Positions 1 through 58,442 of a DNA stretch of 64,000 nt are shown piece after piece; positions within the stretch are counted from its first letter, which is position 1, and each line of letters starts with the position of its first letter. The notes below the pieces were generated by a model, which did not search any database, was not told the origin of the DNA, and worked only from the letters and a program-made list of their open reading frames with translations. The stretch lies in the NCBI GenBank assembly GCA_021397835.1, contig JAJFZO010000272.1, forward strand, positions 1 through 64,000. The letters run 5' to 3'. This DNA comes from Moringa oleifera (taxonomy: Eukaryota > Streptophyta > Magnoliopsida > Brassicales > Moringaceae). The position numbers and the translations under genes were made by a program.

Positions 1-3000
1 CCTCAAACCCTAAACCCCAAAACCTTAACCCTAAACCCCTAAACCCTAAACCTTAACCCTAAACCCCTAAACCCTAAACCTTAAACCTAAAACATGAAAC
101 TTGAAACTCAAAACCTGAAATCCCAAACCCCCAAAACCCCAAACCCCAAACCCCAAACCCCAAACCCCAAACCCTAACACTTAAACCCTAAACCTTAAAC
201 CCTAAACCCAAACCGTAAACCTTAAACCCCAAACCCCACACCCCAAACCCTAAACCCCAAACCTGAAACCCTAAACCCACAACCTTCAAGCCCTAAGCCC
301 CAAGCCCAGACCCAAGACCCCCAAACCCCATAGCCCAAACCCCCAACACCCAACCCTTAACCCTTAACCCATAAACCCTAAACCCCAAACCCTAAACACC
401 AAACCCTAAACCCTAAACCATAACCCACGAACCCCGAACCCCTAAACCCTAAACTTTAACCCCTAAACCAAAAACCTTAAACCCTGACCATTAACCCCTA
501 AACCCTAACCCTTAACCCTTAAACATTAAACCCCAAACCCTAAACCCCTAAACCTTAACCCTTAAACCCCTAGCCCTAAGCCTTAAACGCCTAGACACTA
601 AACCCTAAGCCGTAGGTACTAAACCTTAGACCTTAGACCCTAGACCCTAAGTCTTAAGCCTTAACCCTTGACCCCTAAACCCCAACCCCCAAGCCCAACC
701 CCCAACCCCCAACCCTCAACCCCTAACTCCTAACCCCAAACCCAAAACCGTAAACCCCAACCCTAAACCCTAAAACCCCAAATCTCAAACACCAATCCCT
801 GAACTCAAAACCTTAAACCCGAAACCATAATCCTAAAATCCTGAACTATGAACCATGAATCCTGAACTATGAACCATGAACCGTGAACCCCTAACACCTA
901 AACGTTAACCCCAAACACTAAACGCTAAACCTTCAACCCTGAACCAAGGGACCTGATCCCCGAGCCCTAAGCCATGAGCTCGAGCCTGAGCCTCGAGCCA
1001 AGTGCCCCCAACCTCAAATCTCAAGCCCAAAACCTTTAAACCCTTAAACCTCAAAATCCTAAACACCAAAACCCTTTAACTCAAACCCCTTAACCTAAAA
1101 CCCTGCGCCCTAAATCTTAAAACCTTAAACTGTAAGCCCTAAGCCTTAATCCCTCAACCCTAAGCACTAAGCTCTAAGCCCCAAACGCCGAACTCCGAAC
1201 CCTAAACCCTGAACCTGAAACCCCTAAACCCTAAGCCTCAAACCCTGACCTAAACCTTTGACCCCATACCCCTAACCCCAAAACTCCAAACCCTAAACTC
1301 AAACCATCAACCATTAACTTTCAAACATAAAAACCCCAAAACCTAAAACCCTAAACCTTAAAACCCAAATCACAAATCCTAAACCCTAAATGCTAAATCT
1401 TAAAACCTAAACCCTCAACCCAAACCCCAAACCCCAAACCCTTAGACCCTAGACCCAGGACCAGGGATCCGAGACCTGAGAATTGGACCCCAGACCCTGA
1501 GCCCTAAACTATGAGCCCTGATCCCTGATCCCTGAACCTTGAACCCTCAACCGTGAACCCTAAACCCTGAGCCCTGAGCCCTGAACACTGAGCCTTGAAC
1601 CCTGATCGCTAAACCCCTGAACCCCGAACCTCAAACCTCAGCCTCAAGCCCCGAGCCCCGAAACCCCTTAACACCAAACAGCAAAATCCTAAACCCTAAC
1701 CCTAGATCCCAAATCCCAAACCTCAGACCTGAGACCCTATGACCCTAAGACCCTAGACCCTAGACCCTAGACCCTTAAGACCTTAGGAGCCACGACCCTA
1801 GAGCCTAGAAGCTAGACCCCAAACCCCAAAACTTGAACCCCCAAACCTCAAACCCTAAACCCCAAAACCTTAACCCTAAACCCCTAAACCCTAAACCTTA
1901 AACCTAAAACATGAAACTTGAAACTCAAAACCTGAAATCCCAAACCCCTAAAACCCTAAAACCCTGAAACCCCAAACCCCAAACTCGAAATCGTAAGCCT
2001 CAAACCTTAAACCTTAAACCTCGAATCTCAATTCTCAAACCCCAAACCTCAAACCCTCAACCTTTAACCGAAACCTCAAACCTCAAACCCTTATTCCCCT
2101 AACCCCTCAACCAACTAACCCTCATGCCCCAACACCCAAAACCTCAAACCTCTAAACCCCAAACCCTCAACCCATACCTCAAACCCTAAACTCATAAACC
2201 CCAAACCCCCAACTCCCAACACCCAAACTCTAAACCCTAGACCCTACACCTTAACTCCTAATCCTTAAACCCCAAACCCAAACTTCCAAATTCTTCAACC
2301 CCAAACCTCAAACCCTGAACCCTAACCCAAATCTTTCACCTCATACCCCTAACCCTAAAACTCCAAACCCTAAACTCAAACCCTCAACCCTTAACTTTCA
2401 AACACAAAAACCCTAAAACCTAAAACCCTAAACCCCAAATCACAAATCCTAAATTCTAAACGCTAAATCTTAAAACCTGAACCCTAAACCCCAAGCCCAA
2501 ACCCTCAGACCCTAGACCTAAGACCAGGGATCCCAGAACTGAGAATCGGACCCCGGACCCTGAACCTTGAGCCTTAAGCCCTGAACTATGAGCCTTGATC
2601 CCTGATCCATGAACCTTGAACCCGAACCCTGAGCCCTGAACACTAAGCCCTAAACCCTGACCTCTAAACCCCTGAACCTCGAACCCCAAACCTCAGCCTC
2701 AAGCCCCGAGCCTCGAAACCCCTTAACACAAAACCGCAAAACCCTAAACCCAAACCCTGGACCCTAAACCCCTGACTGCAGACATTAAACCCTAAAGCCT
2801 AAACCCTAAATCCTAACCCCTAAACCTTAAACCCTAACCCGTAAGCCCTTAACCCCTAAACCTTAAACCCTAAACCCCTAAACCTTAACCCTTAAACCCC
2901 TAACCCTAACCCTTAAACGCCAAAACGCTAAACCCTAAGCCTTAAGCCCTAACCCCTGACCCCTAAACCCCAACCCTCAACCCTCAACCCTCAACCCCTA

Positions 3001-6000
3001 ACGCCTAACCCCAAACCCAAAACCCCAAAACCCCAAATCCTAAACCTTAAACCCTAAACCCCTAAACCTTAAACCCTAAACCCCTAAACCTTAACCCTTA
3101 AACCCCTAACCCTAACCCTTAAACGCCAAAACGCTAAACCCTAAGCCCTAAGCCCTAACCCCTGACCCCTAAACCCCAACCCCCAACCCCCAACCCTCAA
3201 CCCCTAACGCCTAACCCCAAACCCTAAACCCCAAAACCCCAAATCCTAAACCCTAATCCCTGAACTCAAAACCCTAAACCCAAAACCTTAATCCTAAAAC
3301 CTTAAACCGTGAACCCTGAACCGTGAACCCCTAACACCTGAACCTTAGCCCCTAAACCTTAACCCCAAACGCTAAACGCTAAACCTTGAACCCTGAACCT
3401 AAGGCCCTAAGCCCCGAGCCCTGAGCGACGAGCCTGAGCCTCGAGCCACGTGCCCCTAACCCCAAATCTCAAGCCCAAAACCATTAAACCCCAAAACTCT
3501 TAAACCTCAAAACCTTTAACCCCAAAACCTTTTAACCCAAACCCCTTAACCAGAAACCCTAAACCCTAAATCTTACAACCTTAAACTGTAAGCCCTAAGC
3601 CTTAATCCCTAAACCCTAAGCACTAAGCCCTAAGCCCCAAACGCCGAACCCCGAACCCTAAACCCTGAACCCGAAACCCCTAAACCCTAAGTCTCAAACC
3701 CTGAACCCTAACTCAAACCTTTGACACCACACCCCTAACCCCAAAACTCCAAACCCTAAACTCAAATCCTCAACCCTTAACTTTCAAACATAAAAACCCC
3801 AAAACCTAAAACCCGAAACCTAAAACCCTAAACCCTAAATCACAAATCCTAAACCCTAAACGCTAAATCTTAAAACCTAAACCCTAAACCCTAAACCCTA
3901 AACCCAAACCCCAAACCCTTAGACCCTAGACCCAGGACCAGGGATCCAAGACCTGAGAATTGGACCCCAGACCCTAAGCCCTGAACTATGAGCCCTGATC
4001 CCTGATCCTTGAACCTTGAACCTTGAACCCTCAACCGTGAACCCTAAACCCTGAGCCCTGAGCCCTGAACACTGAGCCCTGAACCCTTATCGCTAAACCC
4101 CTGAACCCTGAACCTCAAACCTCAGCCTCAAGCCCCGAGCCCCGAAACCCCTTAACACCAAACCGAAAAATCCTAAACCCTAAACCCTAGATCCCAAACC
4201 CCAAACCTCAGACCTGAGAACCTACGACCCTAAGATCCTAGACCCTAGACCCCTAGACCTCTAAGACCTTAGGACCCACGACCCTAGAGCCTAGAAGCTA
4301 GACCCCAAACCCTTAAACTTGAAACCCCAAACCTCAAACCCTAAACCCCAAAAGTGTAACCCTAAACCCCAAAACACAAACCTCAAACTCCAAACACTAA
4401 ACCCTAAACCCTAAACGCTAAACCTTAAACCCTTAACCTAAAACTCGAAACATGGAACTCAAAACCTGAAACCCCAAACCTCTAAAACCCCAAAACCCTG
4501 AAACCCCAAACCCCAAGCTCGAAACCCTAAGCCTCAAACCTTAAACCTTAAACCTCGAACCTTAATTCTTAAACCCCAAACCTCAAACCCTCAACCTTTA
4601 ACCTAAACCTCAAACCCTTATTCCCCTAACCCTTCAACCCCCTAACCCTCATGCCCCAACCCCCAATACCTCAAACCTCTAAACCCCAAACCCTCAACCT
4701 ATACCTCAAACCCTAAACTTGTAAACCTCAAACCCCAAAACCCCCAACTCTCAACCCCCAAACGTTAAACCCTAGACCCCAGACCTTAACTCCTAATCCT
4801 TAAACCCCAAACCCAAACTCCCAAATCCTTGAACCCCAAACCTCAAACCCTGAACCCTAACCCAAACCTTTGACCCCATACCCCTAACCCCAAACTCAAA
4901 CCCTCAACCCTTAACTTTCAAAAGTAAAAACCCCAAAACCTAAAACCCTAAATCCCAAATCACAAATCCTAAATCCTAAACGCTAAATCTTAAAACCTAA
5001 ACCCTAAACCCAAAGCCCAAACCCTTAGACCATAGACCTAAGACCAGGGATCCCAGAACTGAGAATCGGACCCCGGACCCTGAACCTTGAACCTTGAGCC
5101 CTGAACTATGAGCCTTGATCCCTGATCCGTGAACCTTGAACCGTGAACCGTGAACCCTGAGCCCTGAACCATGATCGCTAAACCCCTGAACCCAGAACCC
5201 CAAACCTCAACCTCAGCCCCAAAACCCCTTAACACCAAACCGCAAAACCCTAAACCCCAAATCCCAGACCCCAGACCTCAGACCTGAGACCCTACGAACC
5301 TAAGACCCTAGGCTCTAAACCCTAGACTCTTAGACCCGTAAGACTTTAAGACCCAAGACCCTACACCCTAGAACCTAGACCCTAAACCTCAAACCCCAAA
5401 CGCTAAACCCCAAACCCCAAACCTCAAACCCTAAACCCTAAAAGCTTAACCCTAAACCCCAAAACCCAAACCTCAAACTCCGAACACTAAACCTTAAACC
5501 CTAAATTCTAAACCTTAAACCCTAAACCCAAAACACGAAACTTGGAACTTAAAACCTGAAACCCCAAACCCCAAACCCCTAAAACCCAAAAACCCTAAAA
5601 CCCCAAAACCCCAAACCTCCAACCCCAAAACCTCAAACCTCCAAACCCCAAACCCCAAAACCCCCAAACCTCAAACCCTAGACCCTAGACCTTAAACCCT
5701 AATCCTCAAACCCCAAACCCAAATCCCAAACCCCTAAACCCTAAACCTCAAACCCTGACCCAAACCTTTGACCCCATACCCCAAACCCTAAACCCCAAAC
5801 CCCCTCAACCCCTAATTCTCAAACCTAAAAACCCCACAACCTGAAACCCAAAACCCTAAACCCTAGACCCTAAATCACAAATCCTAAAACCTATCCCCTA
5901 ACCTTCAACTCCCGACCCTCAACCCCCAACCTTAAACCCTAATCCTTAACCCCCAACCCCCTAAACCCTAAACTCGAGCCTCAAGCCTCGATCCTTAAAC

Positions 6001-6239
6001 CTCGAACCCCGAATCCTAACCTTTAACACATAACCCTTAACCTTTAAACCTTAAACCCTAAATCAAAAACCTTAACTCTAAAACCCTAAACCCCTAAATG
6101 AAAAACTTAATTCTAAAACCTTAACCTTAAACCCTAAACTTTAAACCTCACACCCCAAACCCTAAACCCTAACCCCTAACGCCTAACCCTTTAAACTCTA
6201 AGCCCTAAACGCTAAACCCTAAACCCTCAACCCTAAACG
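1..6239. repeat. Degenerate telomere-like satellite with higher-order repeats
   Basis: The + strand is almost free of G and consists of variants of CCCTAAA (CCCCAAA, CCTTAAC, CCTGAAC, CCTCAAA). The C-rich strand on + is what a left chromosome end reads in plants, but exact runs are short, so this is subtelomeric or interstitial rather than an active telomere. Longer blocks recur. A landmark around ACCTTTGACCCCATACCCC appears near 1253, 2330, 3715, 4865 and 5764. A block around AACATGAAACTTGAAACTC appears near 92 and 1910, with diverged forms near 4447 and 5530. Long minus-strand reading frames here are low-complexity products of the repeat and are not genes. Confidence 0.9.
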
Positions 6240-37240: not shown

Positions 37241-40200
37241 ATAACCCCAAACCTGAACCCGAATCAAACCCGAAACTCATAACCTGAAACCCCGAACCTG
37301 AACCCAAACCCGAACCTAAACCCGAAACCCAAAATCTCGAACCTCGAACCCAAAACCATGAATCTCTAAACCCTAAAACCCCAAACCCCAAAACCCAAAA
37401 CTCTAAACCCCTAATCCAAAACCCTAAACCCTTAACCTCAAACCCCTAAACTCTTAAACCCTAATCCTTAACCCTTAAACCTTAACCCCTAAACCCTTAA
37501 ACCCCTAACCCCCAACTGTTAAACTTTAAACCCTAAACCCTAACCCGTAACCCTTAAACTATAACCCTTAAACCCTAAACCCCAATCCTTAACCCTTAAA
37601 CCTTAATCCCTAAACCCAAACCCTAAATCCTCACTCTTAAACCCTAAACCTTAAACCCTAAACCCTAAACCTCAAACTCTCAAACCAAACTCCTAACCGT
37701 AAACCCGAATCCAGAAACCCCAAACTCGAAACGTGAAACTTGAAACTGAAAATCTAAAACCCAAAACCAAATAACCAAAATCCAAAACCCAAAACCCAAG
37801 AACCAAAACCCTAAACCCTAAAACCTCAACCCCCAAAACCCAAACCCCAAACCCAAAACTCGAAACCCAAAACCTAAAACCCGAACCCAGAACCTAAAAC
37901 CTTAAACCTTAACCCTTAAACGCCTAACCCTTGAACCCTGAACACTGAACCCTCACCCAAACCATTGACCCCCACAACCCTAAGCTCTAATCTCAAACCA
38001 CAAACCCCAAACCCAAACCCTCAATCCTCAACTCTCAAACCTAAAAATCCCAAAAACCAAAACCCAAATCCTCAAATCACAAATCCCAAACCTCAAACCC
38101 CAAACCTCAAACCCAAACCTCTTAAACTCTAACTCCCAACCCTTAAACCCTAAACCTTTAAACCCTAACCCTTAAACCCTAAACCCGAACTTGACCCTCA
38201 AACCCTAAATCCTAACCCCTAACCCTTAACCCTTAACCCTTAACACCTAAACCCAAAGCCCTAAATCTCTAACCCCTAAACCAAAAACTTTAACTCAAAA
38301 CCCTAAACCCCTAAATCGAAAACCTTAACTCTAAAACCCTAACCCTAAATCTTAAACCCTAGACCCCAAACTTTAAACCCTAAACCCAAAACTCTAAACT
38401 CCAAACCCCTATCCCCTAACCCCAAGACCCTTACGCGCTAAGCTTTAAACCCTAAACCTTAAACCCGAAACCTCGAACTCGAACCCAAACTTAAAACCTG
38501 GAACCCAAAACCCTAGACTTCGAACCTCGAACCCCAAGCCCCGAACCTCTAAACCCTAAAACTTTAAACCCCGAAACCCAAAAACCTAAACCTAATCCCT
38601 AAGCCTCAAATCCTAAACCCTAAACTTTTATCCCTAACCCCTAACCCCTAACCTCTTAAACCCTAACCCCTAAACCTTAACCCTTAAACCCTTAACCCCA
38701 AACTGTTAAACTTTAAACCCTAACCCTTAAACCCTAACCCCTAACCCCTAAACCCTAAATCGCAATCCTTCACCCCTAAACCTTAATCACTAAACCCCAA
38801 ACCTTAAACCCTGAAACCTAAACCGTCAAATCCCAACCCCTAACCCAAAACCCAAAACCTGAAACCCTAAACTCGAAATGCAAAATTTGAAACTGAAAAT
38901 CCTAGGCCCTAAAAATTAAACCCAAAACCTAAGAACCAAAACCCTAAACCCTAAACCGTAAAACCCCATCCCCCAAGACCCCAAATTCTAACCCCCAAAA
39001 CCGAAAGTTAAAACCCGAAACCTAAAACTCAAACTCAAAATCTTAAACCTTAAACCCTAACCCCTGAACCCCTAACCCTTGAATCCTGAATCCTGAACCC
39101 TAACCCAAACCTTTGACCATACACCCCTAAGCCCTAACCCCAAACCCCAAACCCCAAAACCCAAAACTTAAAACTCTAAACCCCAAATCACAAATCCCAA
39201 ACCCCAACCTCCCAACCTCCAACTCTAAACCCTAACCCCTAAACCCTAACCTTAAACCGTAAACCCGAGCCTAAGCTTCGAGCCCTAAACCTCGAACCCT
39301 AAACCTCGAACCCTAAATCCTAACCCCTAACCCCTAACTTTTAACCCTTAACCCTAAGCCCTAAATCTGTAACCTCTAAACCAAAAACCTTAACTCTAAA
39401 ACCCAAAACCCCTAAACCAAAAACCTTAACTCTAAAACCCTAACGCTAAATCCTAAACTCTAGACTTTAAACTCTAAACCCCTAACCCCTAGCCTTTTAC
39501 ACCCTAAGCCCTAAACACTAAACCCTAAACCCTTAACCTTAAATAGTAATCTGAAAAAAGAAAACTAGCATTAGCCCCAAAAAACATCATTGAACATACC
39601 AAAAATCTAAAAGAAAAATTATTAGAAAGGTATGAAATTTAATACTATATTTAATTTCGAATGTCTTTATACTTAAGATGAGTTAGTCGAATAAAAAAGT
39701 AGTCGTTAATTAATATAAAAATAAAACTCTCACTCATTTCAGTCAATATGAAAAAGAAAAGGAAGTTATAATTGCTCGTCTCATTTTAGTGTAGTGGCTG
39801 CTTTGTAGAGCTACTAAATCTAAACCTCAAACCTCGAATCCTGAATCTCAAACCCCAAATCCCAAACCTCGAACCTTGATCTCTAAATCATGTACTTGAA
39901 ACCCTGAACCCTGAACCTTGAACCCAGAACCCAAAATCGAAGCCTCAAAACCCAAAACCTCCAACCCACACGTAAACCTAAAACCCAAAACCTCGAACCT
40001 CAAACCTAAACCCCCAACCTCTAAACCCTAAACTCCAAACCCCAAAACCCAAAAACCTAAACCCCTAATCCCTAAACCTCAAATCCTAAAACCCCAAACC
40101 TTAAACCTCGAACCCCAAGCTCCGAACCTCTCAACCTTGAACCCTGACCTAAACCTTTGACCCGGCACCCCTAACCCCAAAACCCCAAACCCCAAACTCA

Positions 40201-40620
40201 AACCCTCAACCCTTAGCTCTCAAACCTAAAAACCCCACAACCTAAAACCCCAAATCACAAATCCTAAACCCTAAACCCCAAATCATAAATCTCAAAACCT
40301 AGCCCCCAACCTTCAACTCCCGACCCTCAACCCTCAACCTTAAACCCTAAACCCTAGCCTCGAGTCTCGAGCCTCACCCTTGAACCTCGAACCTCGAATC
40401 CTAACCTTTAACACTTAACCCTTAACCTCTAAACCCTAAACCGTAAATCTCTAACCCCTAAACCAAAAACCTTAACTCTAAAACCCTAAACCTCTAAACG
40501 AAAAACTTTAATTCTAAAACCTTAATCCTAAACCCCAAACTCTAAAGCTCACACCCCTAACCCCTAACCCCTTGAACTCTAAGCCCTAAATGCTAAACTC
40601 TCAACCTTTTAACCCTAAAT
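37240..40620. repeat. Second degenerate telomere-like satellite block
   Basis: Same C-rich/A-rich degenerate CCCTAAA family and orientation as 1-6239. The ACCTTTGACC... landmark recurs near 37963, 39110 and 40150. The block is interrupted at 39541-39825 by a copy of the ~285-base spacer sequence also found at 6240 and 40621. Since unit sequence lies on both sides, this is an interstitial block. Confidence 0.85.
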
Positions 40621-47671: not shown

Positions 47672-48365
47672 TTAATCTGCATATATAGGTGTCAAAGCAC
47701 CATCGATCATGACCAATCTAAGCAGTCGAGGATACTTCGGTTTTGGGGGTAAAGGTTTTACCTCCCGTGCTCGTGACTGTGACTGTGACTGTGCCTGTGC
47801 CTCCCGGGATGGTAAAGGCTTTACCTCTTGTGCCTGTGCCTCCCTGGATGGTAAGGGTTTTACCTCTTGTGCTTGTGACTGTGACTGTGACTGTGCCCGT
47901 GCCTCCGCCTCCAAATCCTGTGACTGTGCCCGTGCCTCCGCCTCCAAATCCTGTGCCTGTGCCTGTGCCTCCAAATCCACGGAGGCATCGAATGTGGTGG
48001 AAGCATCCAATCTGCTGCTGGCATCGCAAATTCTGGTGACATCAAAACTGTTGACCTTTCTCCTCAAATGTAGTGTCCAGATCGTAAAGATGATTCCCAA
48101 TAAAAAGCCCAACACAAAGGCAACGAGGAATATCACGGTCTGATTTAGAAAAACAATTACCAAAAAACTGAATAATATCAATATTAGAATAACAGAGACA
48201 CAAACACATCTTGGCCCACACTAAATAAATCAACACACATACAGAAAGAAGCTCCTTTTACTTACATTCAGCATTTTGACTATAACAAGCTGACAAGCAG
48301 CTAGCACCAAGATAACAAAGCACACCAATGGAAATTGAAACAAACTGAATCGAAGGGCTCACCAT
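47672..48365 (-). pseudogene. Small membrane protein with expanded repeat tail, copy 3 (unit 4)
   Basis: Exon 1 is 48365-48266, the donor is GTAAGT, and exon 2 is 48139-47672 (468 bases, a whole number of codons, open to its stop). Exon 2 encodes TVIFLVAFVLGFLLGI, YLRRK-like basic residues, a Ser/Asp-rich stretch, then an expanded tandem repeat with units like DLEAEARAQSQ and EVKPLPSREAQAQ, then KPLPPKPKYP and the C-terminus GALTPIYAD. Exon 1 is 100 bases where 99 would join in phase: an extra T after GGTGTGCTT shifts it. Without that base the N-terminus would be hydrophobic and continue into the membrane segment. It may be broken, or the true start may lie elsewhere. Family not recognised. 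Confidence 0.5.
47775..47985. repeat. Coding minisatellite in the membrane-protein tail
   Basis: Short GTGCCTGT/GACTGT and TCCGCCTCCAAATCCTGTG units, and a longer block around GATGGTAAAGGCTTTACCTC, are repeated in tandem. The matching region is about 55 bases in unit 1 (13205-13260) and about 85 bases in unit 3. Repeat changes keep the exon 2 frame open in all copies up to KPKYP. Confidence 0.6.
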
Positions 48366-49220: not shown

Positions 49221-49229
49221 TTAAAAATA
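49221..49229. repeat. Left target-site duplication, TTAAAAATA
   Basis: This 9-base sequence precedes the transposon. Joining 49220 plus one copy of the 9-mer to 58452 recreates the uninterrupted sequence at 34776-34800. Confidence 0.8.
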
Positions 49230-49622
49230 AAATTATCAAAATTAATAGTTTGATATTAAATTTTTGTAAAAAAAATTATGTTTTATTAAATTTAATTTTT
49301 TTAATATTTAAATATTTTGAAAAGTCAAAAATATTCTTACAAAAGATAATGATACTCTTAAAAATTAAATGAACTCAAAAATTTATGAGATTTGTCTTAA
49401 CATATTTTTTTTGGAGAAAAAATCGTTCTCTCTTTCGATCACTATCTCTCTTTGAGCTCTGTCTTTCTTCGCCCTTCCTTTGAGTTTTATTTCTTCCAAT
49501 CTTTGTATCCAAGATCTATCAAATCAAGATCCCAAGAAGAAATCGAAGGCTAGTTATCTTGCGCAGAGAAGAAGCTCGTGTTTTTGACAATATATTCTTC
49601 TTCATAATCAGACTGTGCTCGA
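49230..49622 (+). promoter_or_regulatory. Left terminal region and transposase promoter/leader
   Basis: AT-rich terminus followed by a CT-rich leader (about 49425-49510) that ends at the ATG at 49623. No motif array in this part. A TATA position could not be fixed. Confidence 0.45.
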
Positions 49623-52600
49623 ATGAGTAAAGAAGATGACAGGTATACCGTTTAAACTGTAATGTAGCTTAAAACCGTGAAGATTTCAGTTGTAACTATT
49701 TATATCGTGATCTCCTCCTTTGTATTTCATAACATTGGTTGAGAATCGTGTCATAATTTTAGTTTCATACATGTTTGAAAATCGTATCTTACTTGGTTTA
49801 TCGTAACAAGTTTTTCAATTATGACTTATTTGATAACATCATTATGAGATTCGTAACATTCATAAAATCGTAACAAGTTTGTCAATCGTGACTTATTTGA
49901 TTTAATCGTGACTTATTTGATGAAATTGTAACTTAATTGATGAAATCGTAACATGCGAAATCATATATTCATATTTGTAATAGTTAATTCGTTTCAGTTG
50001 TTATTTAAAATGTTTTTTTTTCATTACAGAATCCGGATCATTATAACTTGGAATGGTGAGTGGTCCGAGTCTAGAGGAAGTTTTGAGTATATTGGCAAAG
50101 CCATCAAAACTAAGGAATATGTTATTCGGAGGGATTTGAAATATGTACAGTTGTTGGATTTGGTTAAATGTTGCGTGAAGGCTGATTTCTCTAATATTGA
50201 TATTGTACTGCATACCATAGTAAGATCTGAAAAAATCACTGTCAAAATTGAGTTAAGGAATGATGAAGATGTTGAGTTTATGTTGTACGATGACAGTATA
50301 GCTCCACGTATAATTGTTGATTTGGTGCAGAGAAATTTTATTGGAAATAGGCATGGTTTATGTGAAGGTGAAATTTCAGGAGGAGTTAATCCTTTTAACT
50401 CTTGTACGGGAAGTAATCCTACTATGCAATTAGACGTTTATGGCCTCGAACCATTCATCCATAGTGATACTCTTGTTGACACTCAGCACACCGATGAGAT
50501 AAATTTGGATGAACAGGTGGACTATGATATTGGGTGTGAATACCCAATCATGGGAACTCAACCTACTCAGCCTACCAGTGAAGATCAATGTGAACTCATT
50601 GTAGAGGTAGAACTCAACAATGAAGCGGTGAATGAGAACATACGTACTGTCCCACCTTATATCCCAGTTGCATGCCCAGAAGTACATAATAATTCAAATA
50701 ATGGTGTTGTCAGACGATATAATGTGTTGGGTGCTGAATTATATAGTCTTGCTCCGACTCCTACTATGGAATCAATGACTCCGATTCATACCCTTGCTAG
50801 AGGTTAGTTTTTCCTAAACAAGAAAGAGTTGAAGCGATTTTTGGGTATGCATGCATTAACTGGGAACTTTGAATTTAGAGTCACTAGGTCTAACAAATCA
50901 GTATTTGAGATTGCTTGTAGATAAGAAAATTGTGCATGGAAGGTTCGTGCTGTGAGAGTTGCGCAAGGGCAATTCTTACAAATTAGAAGGTATGATTTGA
51001 CGCATACTTGCACGGTTGAAGAGTTGCATCGACGACATCGACAAGCAAGTTCTGCTGTTATTGGAGAAATTGTAGCTCAGAGGTTATCTACCAATGCTAG
51101 AATCATTAAGCCGAAAGACATCATGGGAGATATGAAAGAACTATATGGCATACAGATTTTATATAGTAAAGCTTGGAAGGCTAAAGAGTATGTATTGTCT
51201 CTTACATATGGAGATCCAATTGAGTCATATCAACAACTACCTTCATACTGCCACATGTTGCAAACTATTAATCCGGGAACTAGGGCTCACATATGCATCG
51301 AGAATGGAACTAATCGATTTAAGTATTTATTTGTGGCTGTTGGACAATCATTGAGGGGGTTTCATTCAGTAATTAGACCGATCATTGCTATCAATGCTGC
51401 TCACCTAAAAGAGAGGTTCCACGGTGTAATGTTTGTAGCGGCGTGTAAAGATGGGAATGAATAGATATATCCAGTAGCATTCGGTTATGGTGACTCGGAG
51501 AACTATGAAGCATGGGAATGGTTCTTAGGGCAGCTAAAAGAAGCAATTGGTTTGGTTGAAGACTTGGTTATTATATCAAATCGTCATGCCAGTATTGCAA
51601 AGGCCAGCGCAAAGGTCTTTCCTAATTCTTGTCATTGTTTATGTTCTTGGCATATGGCTCAAAACATAAAGAATAAGTTTAAGAGAGAAGATGCATCTAA
51701 GATATTTTATAGTGTGGCTAGGGCATATCGAGAATTTGAATTTAATAAATTAATGACTGAGTTACAGGCTAATCACCCTAAAGCTTTTGAATATATCATG
51801 AAGAAAGATTCAAAAAAATGGTCACGTGTGTATTGCCCCCGGAGACGTTATCAACTCATGACCACTAACATTGTTGAAAGTTTGAATTCATGTCTTCGAT
51901 TTGCTCGTAAGTTGCCTATTATGGCTTTATTGGAATTCATTCGAGATATGATGCAACGTTGGTTCTATGATCTGATTGAAAAAAGCTAATGCTTGGAGGT
52001 CACAACTCACAGAGTGGGTTCACTCATTGATGAATGAGAGACAAAAAGTTTCATTACAAATGACGACTTCCAATGTTGATTGGAACATATTTTTAGTTAG
52101 GTACAAGGGTAAAGAGGCAGTTGTGAACCTTATCGACCGTAATTGTACTTGTAGGGAGTTTCAAGCTGATCTTTTGCCATGTGCACATGCACTGGCAGCT
52201 TCTAGGTGATACTGATGGTTTTGTTAATTTTATTATTCTTGTTATTTTTTTTCATTAACTTCATATGTTATGTACTTTTTGCAGGGAACGTAATATTGAT
52301 TTCATAACTCTTTGCTCTAACTACTACAAACAGGATCAACTAGTAGCTGCATATGCTGAGTCGGTATATCCAGTTGGTGACAAGTCTGATTAGAATGTAC
52401 CCGAGAAAATCAAAAGAGTTGTGATATTACCACCGAATAATGGTAAGTCAGTAGGGCGTCCAAAGAAGCAGAGAATACCCTCTGGTGGGGAGAGGGTGCG
52501 TAAAAAAAAATGCTCTAGATGCTTTCAATATGGGCACAATCGATTAACATACTCGAATCCACAATATTTTGATGGAGTAAGCCATTGTCAGTCGTCAAAT

Positions 52601-52717
52601 GTCCCTGATCAATTTCATCGTAAATGCCGTAACTGTGGTGGAGTTGGTCATAATTCACAAACTTGTCAAATGCCTCACAAATCAAATTCACAAGATGATT
52701 GCACCATCGACTTATGA
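49623..52717 (+). pseudogene. MURA-type (MULE) transposase, disrupted
   Basis: Exon 1 is 49623-49642 (MSKEDD, then R across the splice); the intron is 49643-50029. Exon 2 is 50030-52205, the second intron 52206-52284, and exon 3 52285-52717. The ATG at 49623 is preferred because the splice gives MSKEDDRIRIIITWNGEW in frame. Order: N-terminal WNGEW region; MuDR DNA-binding region (KKELKRFLGMHAL, ENCAWKVRAVR); MULE catalytic domain (about 51380-51900); SWIM zinc finger (CTCREFQADLLPCAH, 52147-52191); two CCHC knuckles (52510 onward). Three stops lie in one frame (50805, 50922, 51462). There is one extra A near 51979-51984 and a stop at 52391. Both Asp positions expected in the catalytic triad are Asn (INAAHLK at 51393; SNRH at 51579); the Glu (NIVESLN) remains. 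The first knuckle has Tyr for its last Cys (52550). Confidence 0.85.
49680..49960 (+). repeat. TCGTAAC motif array in transposase intron 1
   Basis: Within intron 1 the motif WTCGTAACW recurs: four exact CGTAAC copies (about 49800-49950), with variants TCGTGAC, TTGTAAC and TCGTATC between them, at irregular spacing of roughly 15-50 bases. Orientation is sense to the transposase. Confidence 0.65.
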
Positions 52718-52719
52718 TA

Positions 52720-53535
52720 AATAATAGTATTTTTTATGATATTGATGATTTTTAACTTCTACGTCATCACATATTCGGATTTTAGGTTAGGTTTTTATAT
52801 AATTTCAATTGTTACATGCAGATGAGTATACCTTATTTTTGTCCATTGAATTCGTAACTTGATTAGTAAATTGTGAGTAACGTTCGTAACTTGATTATGA
52901 AATCGTGCATACTTGTATAATGAAATCGTTAGTAAAATTCGTAACTTCATTAGGAATTCGTAACTTTATTAGTAAATTCTAACTTGATTAGTAAATTGTG
53001 AATAACGTTTGTAACTTGATTATGAAATCGTGCATACTTGTATAATGAAATCGTTAGTAAAATTCGTAACTTCATTAGGAAGTCGTAACTTTATTAGGAA
53101 TTCGTACCTTGATTAGTAAATTATGAGTAACGTTCGTAACTTGATTATGAAATCGTGCATACTTGTATAATGAAATCGTTAGTAAAATTCGCAACTTCAT
53201 TAGGAATTCGTAACTTTATTAGGAATTCGTACCTTGATTAGTAAATTATGAGTAACGTTCGTAACTTGATTATGAAATCATGCATACTTGTATAATGAAA
53301 TCGTTAGTAAAATTCGTAACTTCATTAGGAATTCGTAACTTTATTAGGAATTCGTACCTTGATTAGTAAATTATGAGTAACGTTTGTAACTTGATTATGA
53401 AATCGTGCATACTTGTATAATGAAATCGTTAGTAAAATTCGTAACTTCATTAGGAATTCGTAACTTTATTAGGAATTCGTACCTTGATTAGTAAATTGTG
53501 AGTAACGTTCGTAACTTGATTGATGAGTTAGAATC
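52720..53535 (+). repeat. 125-bp tandem repeat built from the TCGTAAC motif
   Basis: GTAACTTGAT recurs at 52886, 53011, 53136, 53261, 53386 and 53511, that is, exactly every 125 bases. Each unit contains about three CGTAAC and one CGTACC core, mostly in the form TTCGTAACTT, plus ATCGTGCATA. The array lies just 3' of the transposase stop, between the two convergent genes, in sense orientation to the transposase. The exact spacing suggests recent amplification. Confidence 0.85.
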
Positions 53536-54721
53536 TTATGGAGGCGTTACCAAAATTCATAACATTATTAGTACATCATACATCTATTGACAAAAAAAAA
53601 AAAAACCGTTTCAAAAAATTTTAAATTGTATATACAAAATAATGTCATATACAATTGTATAATTTCTAATGAATTAGAAAAGATGTTATATACAATTCTC
53701 AAATGTATATACAAAATAAATACATTGAATAAGAATAAAAAAATTGAATCAATGACTATCATTTACAGTAGAGTTGGCAAATATATATGTTGCCATGTGA
53801 TTTCTAATGACTGACATATCCTTGTCAGTGTATTTTAAATGTTTCCTAAGTAGTAAATATTCTATAATATACAGCATATGAGGACCACAATTGCCACTGC
53901 AAAAAAAAATAATAATTAAGAATAAGGAAAGACATTCACCAAGAATTTTTTTATGATAACACATACTAGAAAAAAGACTTACCTTCTTCGTTGCTGGGGG
54001 ACCTTGTTCTTTGGCTCTAAAGTGCATGAAAGTGGAAGATCCGGCATTTTGGCATTTGATTTTCGAATGAAATATCCGCCACTCGCCATATAGCTAGTTA
54101 GCATAAATCTAAATGGATTTTGCTGCCGAATCCTCACTTCAGTTGGTATCTCTTGACGGAATGAGTCATAGACACGCAACGAGAATTTTCTCAGATCAAT
54201 GACGACTAGGAGCCAGTGAGATCCCCCAACGTGGCAAGGAACCATCAATTACATTAAATATTGTTTAAATATCATTATTGAGTACTCATAATATGGAAAA
54301 AAAGTATATAAAGCATTACTAATGAAAATAACTAACCTTATTTACAGTGCCCCAAGCAGGACAATCCCTTGAAAATTTACCTCGCACACGGTCTAAGAAA
54401 TCTTCTTCCCATTTATGTGCTTCGAAGTTCGAGTGTGCCGGAGGACAATCAGCATCTGGATCCTTTTGATATTCGTTGTAAATGTAATAAAATGTTGTCT
54501 GTAAATTTGAACAATAAAACAAAGTCAACAAATAAATTGAATAGAAAATCAGATAAATAGTCTTAATGATCAATGAACTTACATATAGCCAAGGATCACA
54601 GATGCAGATATCTTGTGCATATTGCTCAAGTAGCTCCTTTTGCCTTCTCCGAAGTATGTATAAATATGCATCAATATGCTGGTGAAGACATCATAAAAGT
54701 GATATTATCAGTACTATTAAT

Positions 54722-54905
54722 CATGTTACGAAATCAAGGTACGAATTCTAAATTTAGTTATGATAATATGAATCATGTTACGAAATCAAGGTACGAATTA
54801 TAAATTTGGTTACGATACTATGAATCATGTTACGAAATAAGGGTATGAATTCTAAATTTGGTTACGATACTATGAATCATGTTACGAAACAAAAGCACGA
54901 CATTT
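54722..54905 (-). repeat. 52-bp tandem repeat of the GTTACGA motif in an intron
   Basis: GTTACG recurs at 54725, 54777, 54829 and 54881, exactly 52 bases apart, with AAGGTACGAATT and TTTGGTTACGATA between. It lies in the intron between exons E and F. Read on the minus strand the cores are TCGTAAC and TCGTACC, sense to this gene and opposite to the arrays left of 53540. Confidence 0.85.
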
Positions 54906-56214
54906 AAGCAAGCAATAATGTAGTGTAAAAAATTGAAAACTTACAGAGTCATCGATCCACTAATCATTGTCAATTAGGACTTTGAACCAGTCCACGCTGA
55001 CTGAATGGCCAATGCCTACGTTGCGGCTGAAGGAAATGAAAAGAAACTGTGAGAAAAAAATTTAAAAAAATTAAATTCAAAAAATTAGTATGCAACACAT
55101 ATGTAATACTTACTATGACTGGCCCTTCATGAAGTCGTTGAATGCAGCAATGATCTTATCTGATATTTTCAGCTTCGCACTGACCATGTGAGTGGACTTG
55201 GCTTTCTTATGCCCAGTATTAAGGTTAACATATGGACTGCACAGTTGTCTTGACCGTTTACGAGTCCTGACAACCGACATCACATTGTCAGTGGCCTCAA
55301 TTGGGACAAGAGCCAAGTCCCTCGCTGCCGTCCTTTTGGGTGACTCTGCAGATGGCAATTCTTCATCTACCACAGCAGGAGCCCCGAAGTTGTCACTGCA
55401 TGGGAATGTAGTGACAACTTCTTCCATTGGCCCTGCAGTGGCTTCTGTTTCGTGGCATTGCCCTGCAAGAGCCAAACCCTCTTGGGCTGAGTCTACCATA
55501 ACACCCTAAAAAAACAAACAATGTACTGAATTAGAAAGTCATATTTAATACATACATTTAATAATGTTCTAAAGAAAGAAAAATATCATTAGTAATACAC
55601 GAAGCAAAAAATACAGTTAAAATAGATTAGAGAACTACCTCATTGGGAACTGGATTTGACATAGGTGGAGACGGGTCTCGGTCACCAAATCCATATCCTT
55701 GTAGAGATATTTGGATGGATTTCAGGATCGCCATTTGCTCTTGATGGCGTCTTTCGTTGTCTGAGTCCATACGATTTACCCTCGCCTTGAGAAGATCCAA
55801 TTTCGACTCCATAGCAACGAGACGACGGTAAACATCTGGATCCCGTTCAACCCTTTAAGCGCCAGGTGCCTCCCGCTTAACATCCCTTTCCCTCAGGTCC
55901 AGCTCTGACTCGTCAACAATTCGTTCTTCTTGAGTAGGGATCCTCTCCCTTACCTTGAAAGTTTTGCGCAAAGAAGATGACGAATTTGTAGCCCTGTTCT
56001 GATTGGGAGACTCTACGATTTTATCATCCCGAATCGATCGTTGGGCAGGCACAACACTGTCTTCAACCCTAACATAGTATGGGGCTTGACGCTCGGCAGT
56101 AGTTGGCTTCAAATTTAGCTTAGCCCCCATATGAAAATACAAATAAAGTTACGAAATTAATAATGAATATACAAAAATGAAACATTAAGACACAACATAA
56201 AAAATTTTTGAAGA

Positions 56215-56465
56215 TAAGAAATTAGAGAAAGAGGGCACGAAATTGGAAAAGTAAGGCACGAAATAGATGAATGAAGGCACTAAGTAGAGAAAGAAGGTAC
56301 GAAATTTAGAAAGAATGCACGAAGTAAAGAAAGAAGATACGAAATTTAGAAAGAAGGCACGAAGTAGAGAAAGAAGGTACGAAATTTAGAAAGAAGGCAT
56401 GAAATAGAGAAAGAAGGCACGAAATAGGAAAGAAGGGACGAAATGGAGAAGATGGCACGAAATTA
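56215..56465 (-). repeat. ~20-bp GGYACGAAAT motif array
   Basis: About ten ACGAA copies (GGCACGAAAT, GGTACGAAAT, GGCACGAAGT) plus two variants, separated by AGAAAGAAG-type purine-rich linkers. On the minus strand the core is TTCGTACC/TTCGTGCC. It lies between exons B and C of the DUF1985 gene. Confidence 0.8.
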
Positions 56466-57419
56466 CTTACACTGTTTGTGAAGATTTTCTTGCAATCTCC
56501 ATTATGGGGCCTGCAATGGAACCTCTATTGGCAAATTCTTGGCAATGGCAAGTCGAATCTTGACAACCTCATGCGTTAGTAGCAGGAATCACTTTAAAGG
56601 CAAAAACCTGTGAAAAAAAATGAAAATGAAGTTATAATTGATTAATATAAAATTCAATGAAACTTTAAAAAAATAAAATAAAAAATTTCAAACAAAATCC
56701 TTACATGTAATGCCCATACGAAGCCGTAAGCATTATAGCTCACCCCATCAGCATCCCTGATTTGATTTGCAACTGCCTTCTTGAAATGCAATATGGAGTT
56801 GCAGTAGACCCTGGTGCCCCATGGAAAGCCATTGAAAGCCTCTAAATTGTCTACTAAATGAAACTGCCATGTAGGGACCTGCTGCCGCTCGTCGTGGCCT
56901 TTGATGAACCCATTCAGCAAATACAATAACCCCAGCTTTAGTTTATCATCTTCGTCTTCAAACTCTCCTTGTAGCAACCTCGTCTTGATGCTACTACCAC
57001 TAACCTTATCCTTCCCCCCGAAGTATTTGGCTAGGATACCAGATGGAGTAGCTTCAATATTCTTTGTATCCGGTAGCTCGCCAAACTTCAATCCAGTGAT
57101 TAGGCAGAATTCCACTTTGCTGAAACGAACTTCATTCTGCCCAAGTCTGAACCAGATTGTGGACAATAATCCCTGAGAAGTTAAAATCGGCGTGCAAATG
57201 TAGGAAATGCCCTAAGCAGGTCCCTCTGAATTTCTCCTTCTCAGAGTTATCCAAAATTGTCCTTAGAGTAGGGATGACATCATTGTCACAGTGCTTGAGT
57301 ATTTTTCCAATCTTCCACGACTCTTTGGGGGTCACATATGGCTTCTGAGAAACAGGGCTACTTGCCATCTGCATTTGATCCAAAAAAAAGGTCAAAAAAT
57401 AGATTTTCCATTCAGTAAT

Positions 57420-57720
57420 CATGGTACGATTGTTTTAAACAAGGTACGATTTAAGCAAATAAGTTACAATTTCAAACATATAAGGTACGATTTAAGCAAA
57501 CAAGTTACGATTGAAAACAAAAAAGGTACGATTGAAGCAAACAAGTTACGATTGAAAACAAAAACGATACGATTTCAGCAAACAAGTTACAATTTTCAAC
57601 AAATAAAGTATGAATTAAGCAAATAAGGTACGATTTATGCAATCACAGTACGATTGCATAAAAAAACAGTTCCATTACCAAAATAGGTTACGATTTCATT
57701 AAATAGATACGGTTATTATT
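57420..57720 (-). repeat. GTTACGATT/GGTACGATT motif array upstream of the DUF1985 start
   Basis: About ten exact TACGA copies and four variants in 300 bases, as AAGGTACGATTT and AAGTTACGATTG alternating with AAGCAAAC-type linkers. It probably lies in a 5' intron of the minus-strand gene, mirroring the array in intron 1 of the transposase gene. Confidence 0.8.
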
Positions 57721-58442
57721 ATGAGGTCACAAATGTGATGAACCGTTGCATATAGATGCACCTAAGCCAAGAAATATTGGAGCCAACAAACCAGAAAATG
57801 AAGACCTAAGCATGCGATACCTATATACATATACCCAGAGAAATTTTTGGGTTTCAATGTATCAAAAAAAAAATGAAAAATAATACACCGCGATATACCC
57901 AAACATAGCAGATTCCAAAACCAATACAAAATCAAAAGAAAATGATTCAAAAACTGTTGGAGAAGCTTTCAAGCCCATAGAGTAAACTCAAAAAAATTAA
58001 AAAATTGTTGAATCAAATATGAGGGAAGAATTTCATCCGTGGGTATTCAATAAGCAAAAAACCCACAGAAATTTGAGTAGAATAGATGCTTGAAATCATA
58101 CCTCTATTGATTTTTTAGTGATTCAGTAGCTTGCGGATATTATTGAAAGGTTGGTTTACAACGAAAGCAAAGAAATCAACAGACACCGAATGAAGAGAGC
58201 TGAAGCTGAATGAGCTAAGTGGTAAAACTTAGCACCAGAATTAGGAAAGAGGGAAATAGAGACGTTTGAGATGTTTGACTTTTCATATTCTGTAGTTGGA
58301 CAAGTAAGTAATTGTACATCTGCTGTGAAAGGTAATTTTGTCTCAAAGTGTCTAAAAAGTGTTAAAAACAAATATATTACTAATGTTAGTTATTTACGTA
58401 AATATCCTTATACGGGTGATTAAAAAAAAATTTTCCTCAACT
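57721..58442 (-). promoter_or_regulatory. Right terminal region: leader and promoter of the DUF1985 gene
   Basis: On the minus strand, sequence near 58240-58180 (CATTCAGCTTCAGCTCTCTT) resembles a pyrimidine-rich 5' leader. A possible donor (GAG, then GTATGATT) near 58102 would start a 5' intron reaching the ATG at 57374. The outer end is AT-rich. No inverted repeat to the left end was seen. Confidence 0.4.

Follow-up and report, generated by a model that had tools for sequence, protein, structure and literature searches.

The closest described relatives of the element treated here are the VANDAL transposons of Arabidopsis and their VANC proteins. Fu 2013 reportedly dealt with the Arabidopsis VANDAL21/VANC21 pair, and the abstract of Sasaki 2022 (EMBO J) is said to cover DUF1985, DUF287 and Ulp1 domains, motif density, and helical periodicity. 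VANC21 and VANC6 are reported to bind tandem motifs of the same orientation in non-coding VANDAL DNA, the Arabidopsis words being YAGTATTAY (VANDAL21) and AGTTGTMC (PMC5735166). VANDALs are described as having 9-bp target duplications and terminal inverted repeats (TIRs) that are absent or short and degenerate (PMC6446971). VANC genes bearing an Ulp1 domain (Kaonashi, KIU) also exist and target specific motifs; according to a 2026 review, the capture is ancient and has been conserved among eudicots, with KIU elements in Arabidopsis and Ulp1-bearing Mutator-like elements (MULEs) in grapevine, melon, and rice (PMC13317346). VANC structures are mentioned in meeting reports, as then unpublished (PMC8756742, PMC12859917). 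We describe a related element in 64,000 nucleotides of Moringa oleifera DNA, the window (assembly GCA_021397835.1, contig JAJFZO010000272.1, positions 1 to 64,000). We read it, with a probability of about 0.8, as a Mutator-like element of VANDAL type that encodes a transposase and a VANC protein, the DUF1985 domain of the latter reading TCGTRHC arrays and thereby countering silencing.

The Moringa element resembles VANDAL21/VANC21 in being a MURA-type element with a DUF1985 protein and dense same-orientation motif arrays within introns and the remaining non-coding sequence; the homologous VANC21 domain, the 9-bp duplications, and the lack of clear TIRs are also shared (PMC6446971). It differs in its word, TCGTRHC rather than YAGTATTAY, and in having a C48 protease domain fused to the protein. 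As compared with VANDAL21, no third, VANB-like gene was noticed among the element's open reading frames (ORFs), a small spliced gene not having been searched for. VANDAL6/VANC6 is similar in having two motif forms one base apart, reported there as AGTTGTCC/AGTTGTAC and found here as TCGTACC/TCGTAAC, but the word is another one, and that of Moringa contains a CpG. In Kaonashi, as here, VANC and Ulp1/C48 are joined in a single protein of a non-TIR MULE (PMC13317346); the Moringa element belongs to another plant lineage, and two genes are noticed in it versus three in KIU. A first-pass annotation, made from the window's letters, had proposed a VANDAL/VANC-type anti-silencing pair, and this interpretation is supported. 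Its CpG-bearing motif is indeed unlike the Arabidopsis words YAGTATTAY and AGTTGTMC (PMC5735166). The SUMO-protease fusion that it proposed is present but is not new, having been published as KIU (PMC13317346).

The window copy is inactive, broken by mutation: stops interrupt its MURA frame, and a frame change divides its DUF1985 exon. A Pfam scan of ten window ORFs matches DUF1985 (1.6e-22), Peptidase_C48 (6.6e-7), MULE (7.6e-12), and a CCHC knuckle (4.8e-5), each on the expected strand, as predicted for a MURA-type transposase gene and a convergent DUF1985-C48 gene. Relatives were located in the 279.5-Mb genome with a 27-base motif-array word, and 20 of 36 hand-grouped places were fetched; with the window element, these make 21 copies. 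By tblastn, all 20 relatives carry MURA and C48 sequence and 19 carry DUF1985, the sole exception, L018, being a stretch that ends at a contig end. Arrays are kept in all 20, which were themselves chosen by an array word, and one relative, L017, retains an open VANC frame.

The L017 gene has nine exons that, joined across GT-AG introns, give an open spliced frame of 828 aa; DUF1985 lies in exon 1 and C48 in exons 5–9. Strict exon anchors fitted 1 of the 21 copies, L017 alone, and the open frame is known from that copy. Its minus-strand product matches DUF1985 (1.4e-25, residues 73–202) and Peptidase_C48 (2.8e-24, residues 600–819), both above the Pfam cut-off within one reading frame. When compared with PDB sequences, residues 39–286 match Arabidopsis VANC21 (PDB 9lnj/9lnk, E=6.7e-11), and a profile of 13 DUF1985 sequences matches VANC21 with E=4.5e-13. 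The C-terminus matches SENP1 (E=2.3e-4), with alignment of the catalytic His, Asp, Gln, and Cys. These residues are kept across the 21 copies: His in 19, Asp in 21, Gln in 20 (with one gap), and Cys in 21. Judged by sequence similarity, the N-terminal domain is homologous to the solved part of VANC21 and is fused to a SENP/Ulp1-type protease domain, which bears out the SUMO-protease-like extension of the first-pass annotation. The closest named proteins, at 27–55% identity, come from Acer, Dipteronia, Ficus, Primulina, and others. Pairwise dN/dS in the 21 copies, pooled over non-independent pairs and without a likelihood test, is 0.29 for the DUF1985 exon and 0.31 and 0.40 for two C48 exons.

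The distribution of the word is a second line of evidence. The window has 43 TCGTAMC words, against a mean of 4.06 and a maximum of 9 in 100 shuffles, and 41 of the 43 fall inside the element. Across the family there are 999 occurrences in 189,010 bp of 21 elements versus none in 16,173 bp of flanks from 20 elements. The arrays are non-coding, as the first-pass annotation had it: the aligned family has 67 motif CpGs, of which 62 are non-coding, 0 exonic, and 5 unplaced in a window gap, exon limits being approximate. Of the 38 TCGTRHC words on the VANC side of L017, none is exonic and 12 lie upstream, whereas introns 2 and 5 have 15 and 11, respectively. The two longest introns of the gene (364 and 313 bp) contain 26 of the 38.

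In every one of the 21 copies, all plus-strand TCGTAMC words come before all minus-strand ones; thus, the word has the sense orientation of whichever gene contains or adjoins it. Because the word is almost always sense and largely intronic, a role in RNA, for instance as a splicing or export signal of element transcripts, has to be considered. For TCGTAMC, the sense orientation extends to all 15 further loci described below, and the 12 VANC-side words of L017 that lie outside the two long introns are all upstream of the gene. Such a role nevertheless seems very improbable to us, as one array lies past the MURA stop codon and another before the VANC start codon, and VANDAL21 also has same-orientation arrays, where the protein is reported to bind DNA (PMC5735166).

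The repeat units of the five arrays (Table 1) are unlike. Only TCGTA and TATTT among 5-mers have at least two sense copies in all five, and the top 7-mer, TCGTAAC, has at least two copies in four of them. In a comparison of the five arrays in 5 of the 21 copies, the broader word is TCGTRHC, followed by TT at positions 12–13 in 69–96% of instances, against a mean background TT frequency of 20–29% at positions 8–20. TCGTAMC, as first annotated, therefore holds as the core word but not as its full extent, which is TCGTRHC, often with N4-TT. In other classes, some arrays have a weaker TT tail or none; several of the arrays of these classes are represented by 2–12 instances. Of 843 word spacings counted up to 70 nt (sums by hand), 416 fall at 19–21 nt, close to two DNA turns, and more peaks are seen at 13 and 32 nt.

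In other DNA transposons, there are repeats close to the ends that the transposase binds. The arrays could likewise be transposase binding sites, or a by-product of tandem-repeat turnover, with the DUF1985 protein not their reader. Arrays do grow and shrink. Copies L026 (contig C63) and L027 (contig C289) have a common left flank and probably represent alleles or duplicated contigs. With 6 substitutions between them over 8,991 aligned bases, they nonetheless have 64 versus 50 MURA-side words and MURA-to-C48 distances that differ by 482 bp; the 1,022 gap columns of their alignment, to which unequal stretch ends contribute, were disregarded. Judged from this pair, array length evolves much faster than sequence. 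Yet one and the same word recurs in arrays of unlike units, inside introns of both genes and distant from the ends, and the homolog VANC21 is reported to bind such arrays (PMC5735166), so we hold this explanation to be unlikely.

Arrays and DUF1985 also go together elsewhere in the genome. Fifteen further loci were picked by DUF1985 alone, with regard to varied frame lengths. Eleven have 10–20 sense TCGTAMC words and no antisense one, all but one word being TCGTACC. The other four, a second class whose DUF1985 is about 60% identical to the window's, have 1–3 TCGTAMC words, with arrays of TCGTRYCAAGATT in their place. Over all 15 loci, TCGTAMC is found 185 times in sense and 0 times in antisense orientation, and TCGTRHC 295 times in sense and once in antisense (TCGTATC in L043; hand sum). 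The second class carries a shifted form of the motif, TCGTRYC/TCGTGAC. Downstream of its DUF1985, a MURA half again lies in convergent layout, with sense-oriented TCGTGAC/TCGTGCC arrays. The close and middle groups are not separable by motif form, and the second class alone differs as a whole. TCGTAAC versus TCGTACC was rejected as a class label, since the TCGTACC-rich elements listed for contig C1 carry, at one end, TCGTAAC arrays as well.

On the 11.6-Mb contig C1, up to position 11,557,170, the TCGTAMC arrays among the matches listed fall into nine hand-grouped elements, and DUF1985 is present in all nine (seven by genome search, two by fetched stretches). Genome-wide, the 95 matches to the second-class array pattern were grouped by hand into 55 places, 53 of which have a same-strand DUF1985. 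These 53 comprise 34 + 3 by DUF1985 genome matches and 16 of 18 by fetched stretches, the 34 coming from a comparison of the 55 places with 35 hand-picked DUF1985 places of 150. The 16 fetched DUF1985 matches are all nearest class II, the classing of the other 37 being incomplete. The two places without DUF1985, L053 (C11:2430544-2431244) and L054 (C24:204036-204736), adjoin sequence that has 78–80% identity with the upstream terminus of class II elements; by this similarity, they are likely deletion derivatives retaining the target word. Related elements without the arrays, or a word common elsewhere, would have spoken against the first-pass annotation by its own terms; neither emerged within what was covered. 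Arrays are present in 20 of 20 relatives and 15 of 15 DUF1985-picked loci, and among the C1 matches listed no dense arrays lie outside elements. The recurrence of the word in unlike arrays is a stronger argument for function than this linkage, because descent alone would give the same pattern.

Several points weigh against an anti-silencing VANC pair. Constraint is weaker in two middle VANC exons (dN/dS 0.62 and 0.61) and in MURA (0.62). AlphaFold2, run on a DUF1985 alignment for which 16 of 35 loci met a strict pattern for an uninterrupted domain and 10 of the 16 were used, gave a pLDDT of 49, and Foldseek returned neither VANC21 nor any meaningful match. The predicted structure was therefore rejected as evidence, and the VANC21 link rests on the sequence matches. 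Motif CpGs stand as TG/CA in 6.6% of cases, versus 8.2% for other non-coding CpGs, 7.2% in MURA, and 9.0% in VANC exons. Slower CpG decay as a sign of VANC protection was accordingly dropped, the decay being about that of other CpGs; with no clear protection, any demethylation would either happen too seldom over time or fail to be inherited. A DNA-binding model has no need of strict sense polarity. Three TCGTAMC words within short gaps occur 1,601 times genome-wide, and the reversed control pattern 107 times. The genome search for DUF1985 scored 150 of 417 candidates, all 150 above cut-off. Finally, the correlation of motif class with VANC class may reflect common descent alone.

For the VANC-type element that we favor, the following steps are envisaged. 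The DUF1985 domain would bind the arrays of introns and flanking non-coding DNA, in which TCGTRHC(-N4-TT) words commonly follow one another at about 20 bp. The array-bound protein would then remove silencing or methylation locally, allowing transcription of both genes. We infer DNA binding and demethylation because VANC21 and VANC6 are reported to act in this way (PMC5735166, PMC10398659). In a weaker and more speculative step, the C48 domain might cleave SUMO-like modifiers from silencing factors at the arrays. A bolder proposal, which we regard as tentative and rather doubtful, is that the two VANC classes, with their approximately 60% identical DUF1985 domains, read variants of one directional word, TCGTRHC-N4-TT, placed nearly always on the sense strand of the gene. 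The word would serve them as an oriented docking site through which an active SUMO-type protease is delivered to the silencing machinery. If so, slow drift at two word positions would amount to a protein-DNA code that can be read, with deSUMOylation as the step by which anti-silencing takes effect.

Table 1. Features of the element in the window (strand "." where none applies).
Feature	Position	Strand	Basis or remark
Left target-site duplication AATTTTAAA	49217..49225	.	Matches the right one at 8 of 9 bases
Whole MULE/VANDAL-type element	49226..58438	.	Ends common to relatives; copies 94–100% alike; inactivated by mutation
MURA transposase gene	49623..52717	+	Domain matches and relatives; exon ends by eye; stops in window copy
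Motif array in inferred MURA intron 1	49801..49952	+	Sense orientation
Motif array downstream of MURA stop codon	52848..53526	+	125-bp unit x 5.4; sense to MURA
VANC-like gene, nine exons	53750..57368	-	Model from L017; start and stop by eye; frameshifted in window copy
C48 exon with catalytic His and Asp	53982..54248	-	Pfam and alignment; catalytic Cys in following exon
Motif array in VANC intron 5	54712..54889	-	Sense to VANC
Motif array in VANC intron 2, TCGTRCC form	56148..56464	-	Sense to VANC
DUF1985 (VANC21-like) part as in window	56657..57211	-	Pfam match
Motif array directly upstream of VANC start codon	57423..57693	-	Sense to VANC
Right target-site duplication AACTTTAAA	58439..58447	.	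8 of 9 bases equal to the left one

The limits of the element follow from the relatives, whose left end GACGAAATTG and right end TTTTCCTC are those of the window element with few changes. The first-pass annotation had the element right but its positions, 49230..58442, slightly off: the relatives place the ends at 49226–58438, a length of 9,213 bp. Its 9-base target duplication is present. Among 18 copies for which both ends are available, the duplication is perfect in 14, counting L016, where a poly-A run makes it ambiguous. One mismatch is found in 2 of the 18 (L020 and the window copy), and no clear duplication in 2 (L017 and L024); these counts omit L018, L026, and L027, the right ends of which lie outside the fetched stretches. 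Among the 25 longest of 144 inverted-repeat pairs, none links the two element ends, in line with the absence of visible TIRs noted earlier, and the terminal 9 bases of the relatives match at 7 of 9 positions between ends (by eye). The copies are 94–100% identical in pairs. Three copies at separate places differ by just 14–19 substitutions per approximately 9,260 aligned bases; therefore, on sequence divergence, the family moved recently. L024 and L028 have identical left flanks and different right flanks, and one of them is likely a recombinant or rearranged copy.

In the MURA gene, the first exon (49623–49642) is short and was placed from splice signals; the main exon begins at 50030, and the last extends over 52285–52717. 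The open MURA frame of L017 additionally shows DBD_Tnp_Mut, MULE, and SWIM domains. Among L009–L028 and the window copy, synonymous divergence is 0.06–0.085 in VANC exons versus 0.033 in MURA, an approximately 2-fold difference, as if the two halves had differing histories or had undergone exchange. An antisense 137-aa frame over the MURA N-terminus (50024–50437, minus strand) is open in all 21 copies, which may be a chance of composition or codon use. Outside the element, short GC-richer tandem repeats with units of 33, 39, and 102 bp occupy window positions 47748–47972. The plant telomere-type repeat AAACCCT forms long, degenerate blocks at 5–6238 and 37297–40619; the surroundings thus look subtelomeric or hold interstitial telomere repeats.

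The kind of transposon described here is already known, that is, VANDAL/VANC-type, Ulp1-bearing, and KIU-like. Neither TCGTAAC nor TCGTACC was among the matches listed when the literature was searched with VANDAL-type terms, a search outside which Sasaki 2022 fell. Three features are new as far as the sources consulted go: the CpG-bearing motif with its frequent bipartite tail; the strict sense polarity relative to the genes, none being stated in the parts of the VANDAL literature consulted; and the motif core kept between two distant VANC classes, unlike VANC21 and VANC6, whose words differ sharply.

The Moringa elements provide a large natural set outside Arabidopsis, with 150 scored DUF1985 places of 417 candidates, young near-identical copies, and two motif classes, which serves the study of VANC proteins and target words changing together. 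The role of the Ulp1 domain is termed unknown in the 2026 review (PMC13317346). Here that role becomes directly testable, given the retained protease active site and the constraint on the domain. Sequence-directed demethylation could also find a handle in a short CpG-bearing word that has its own reader.

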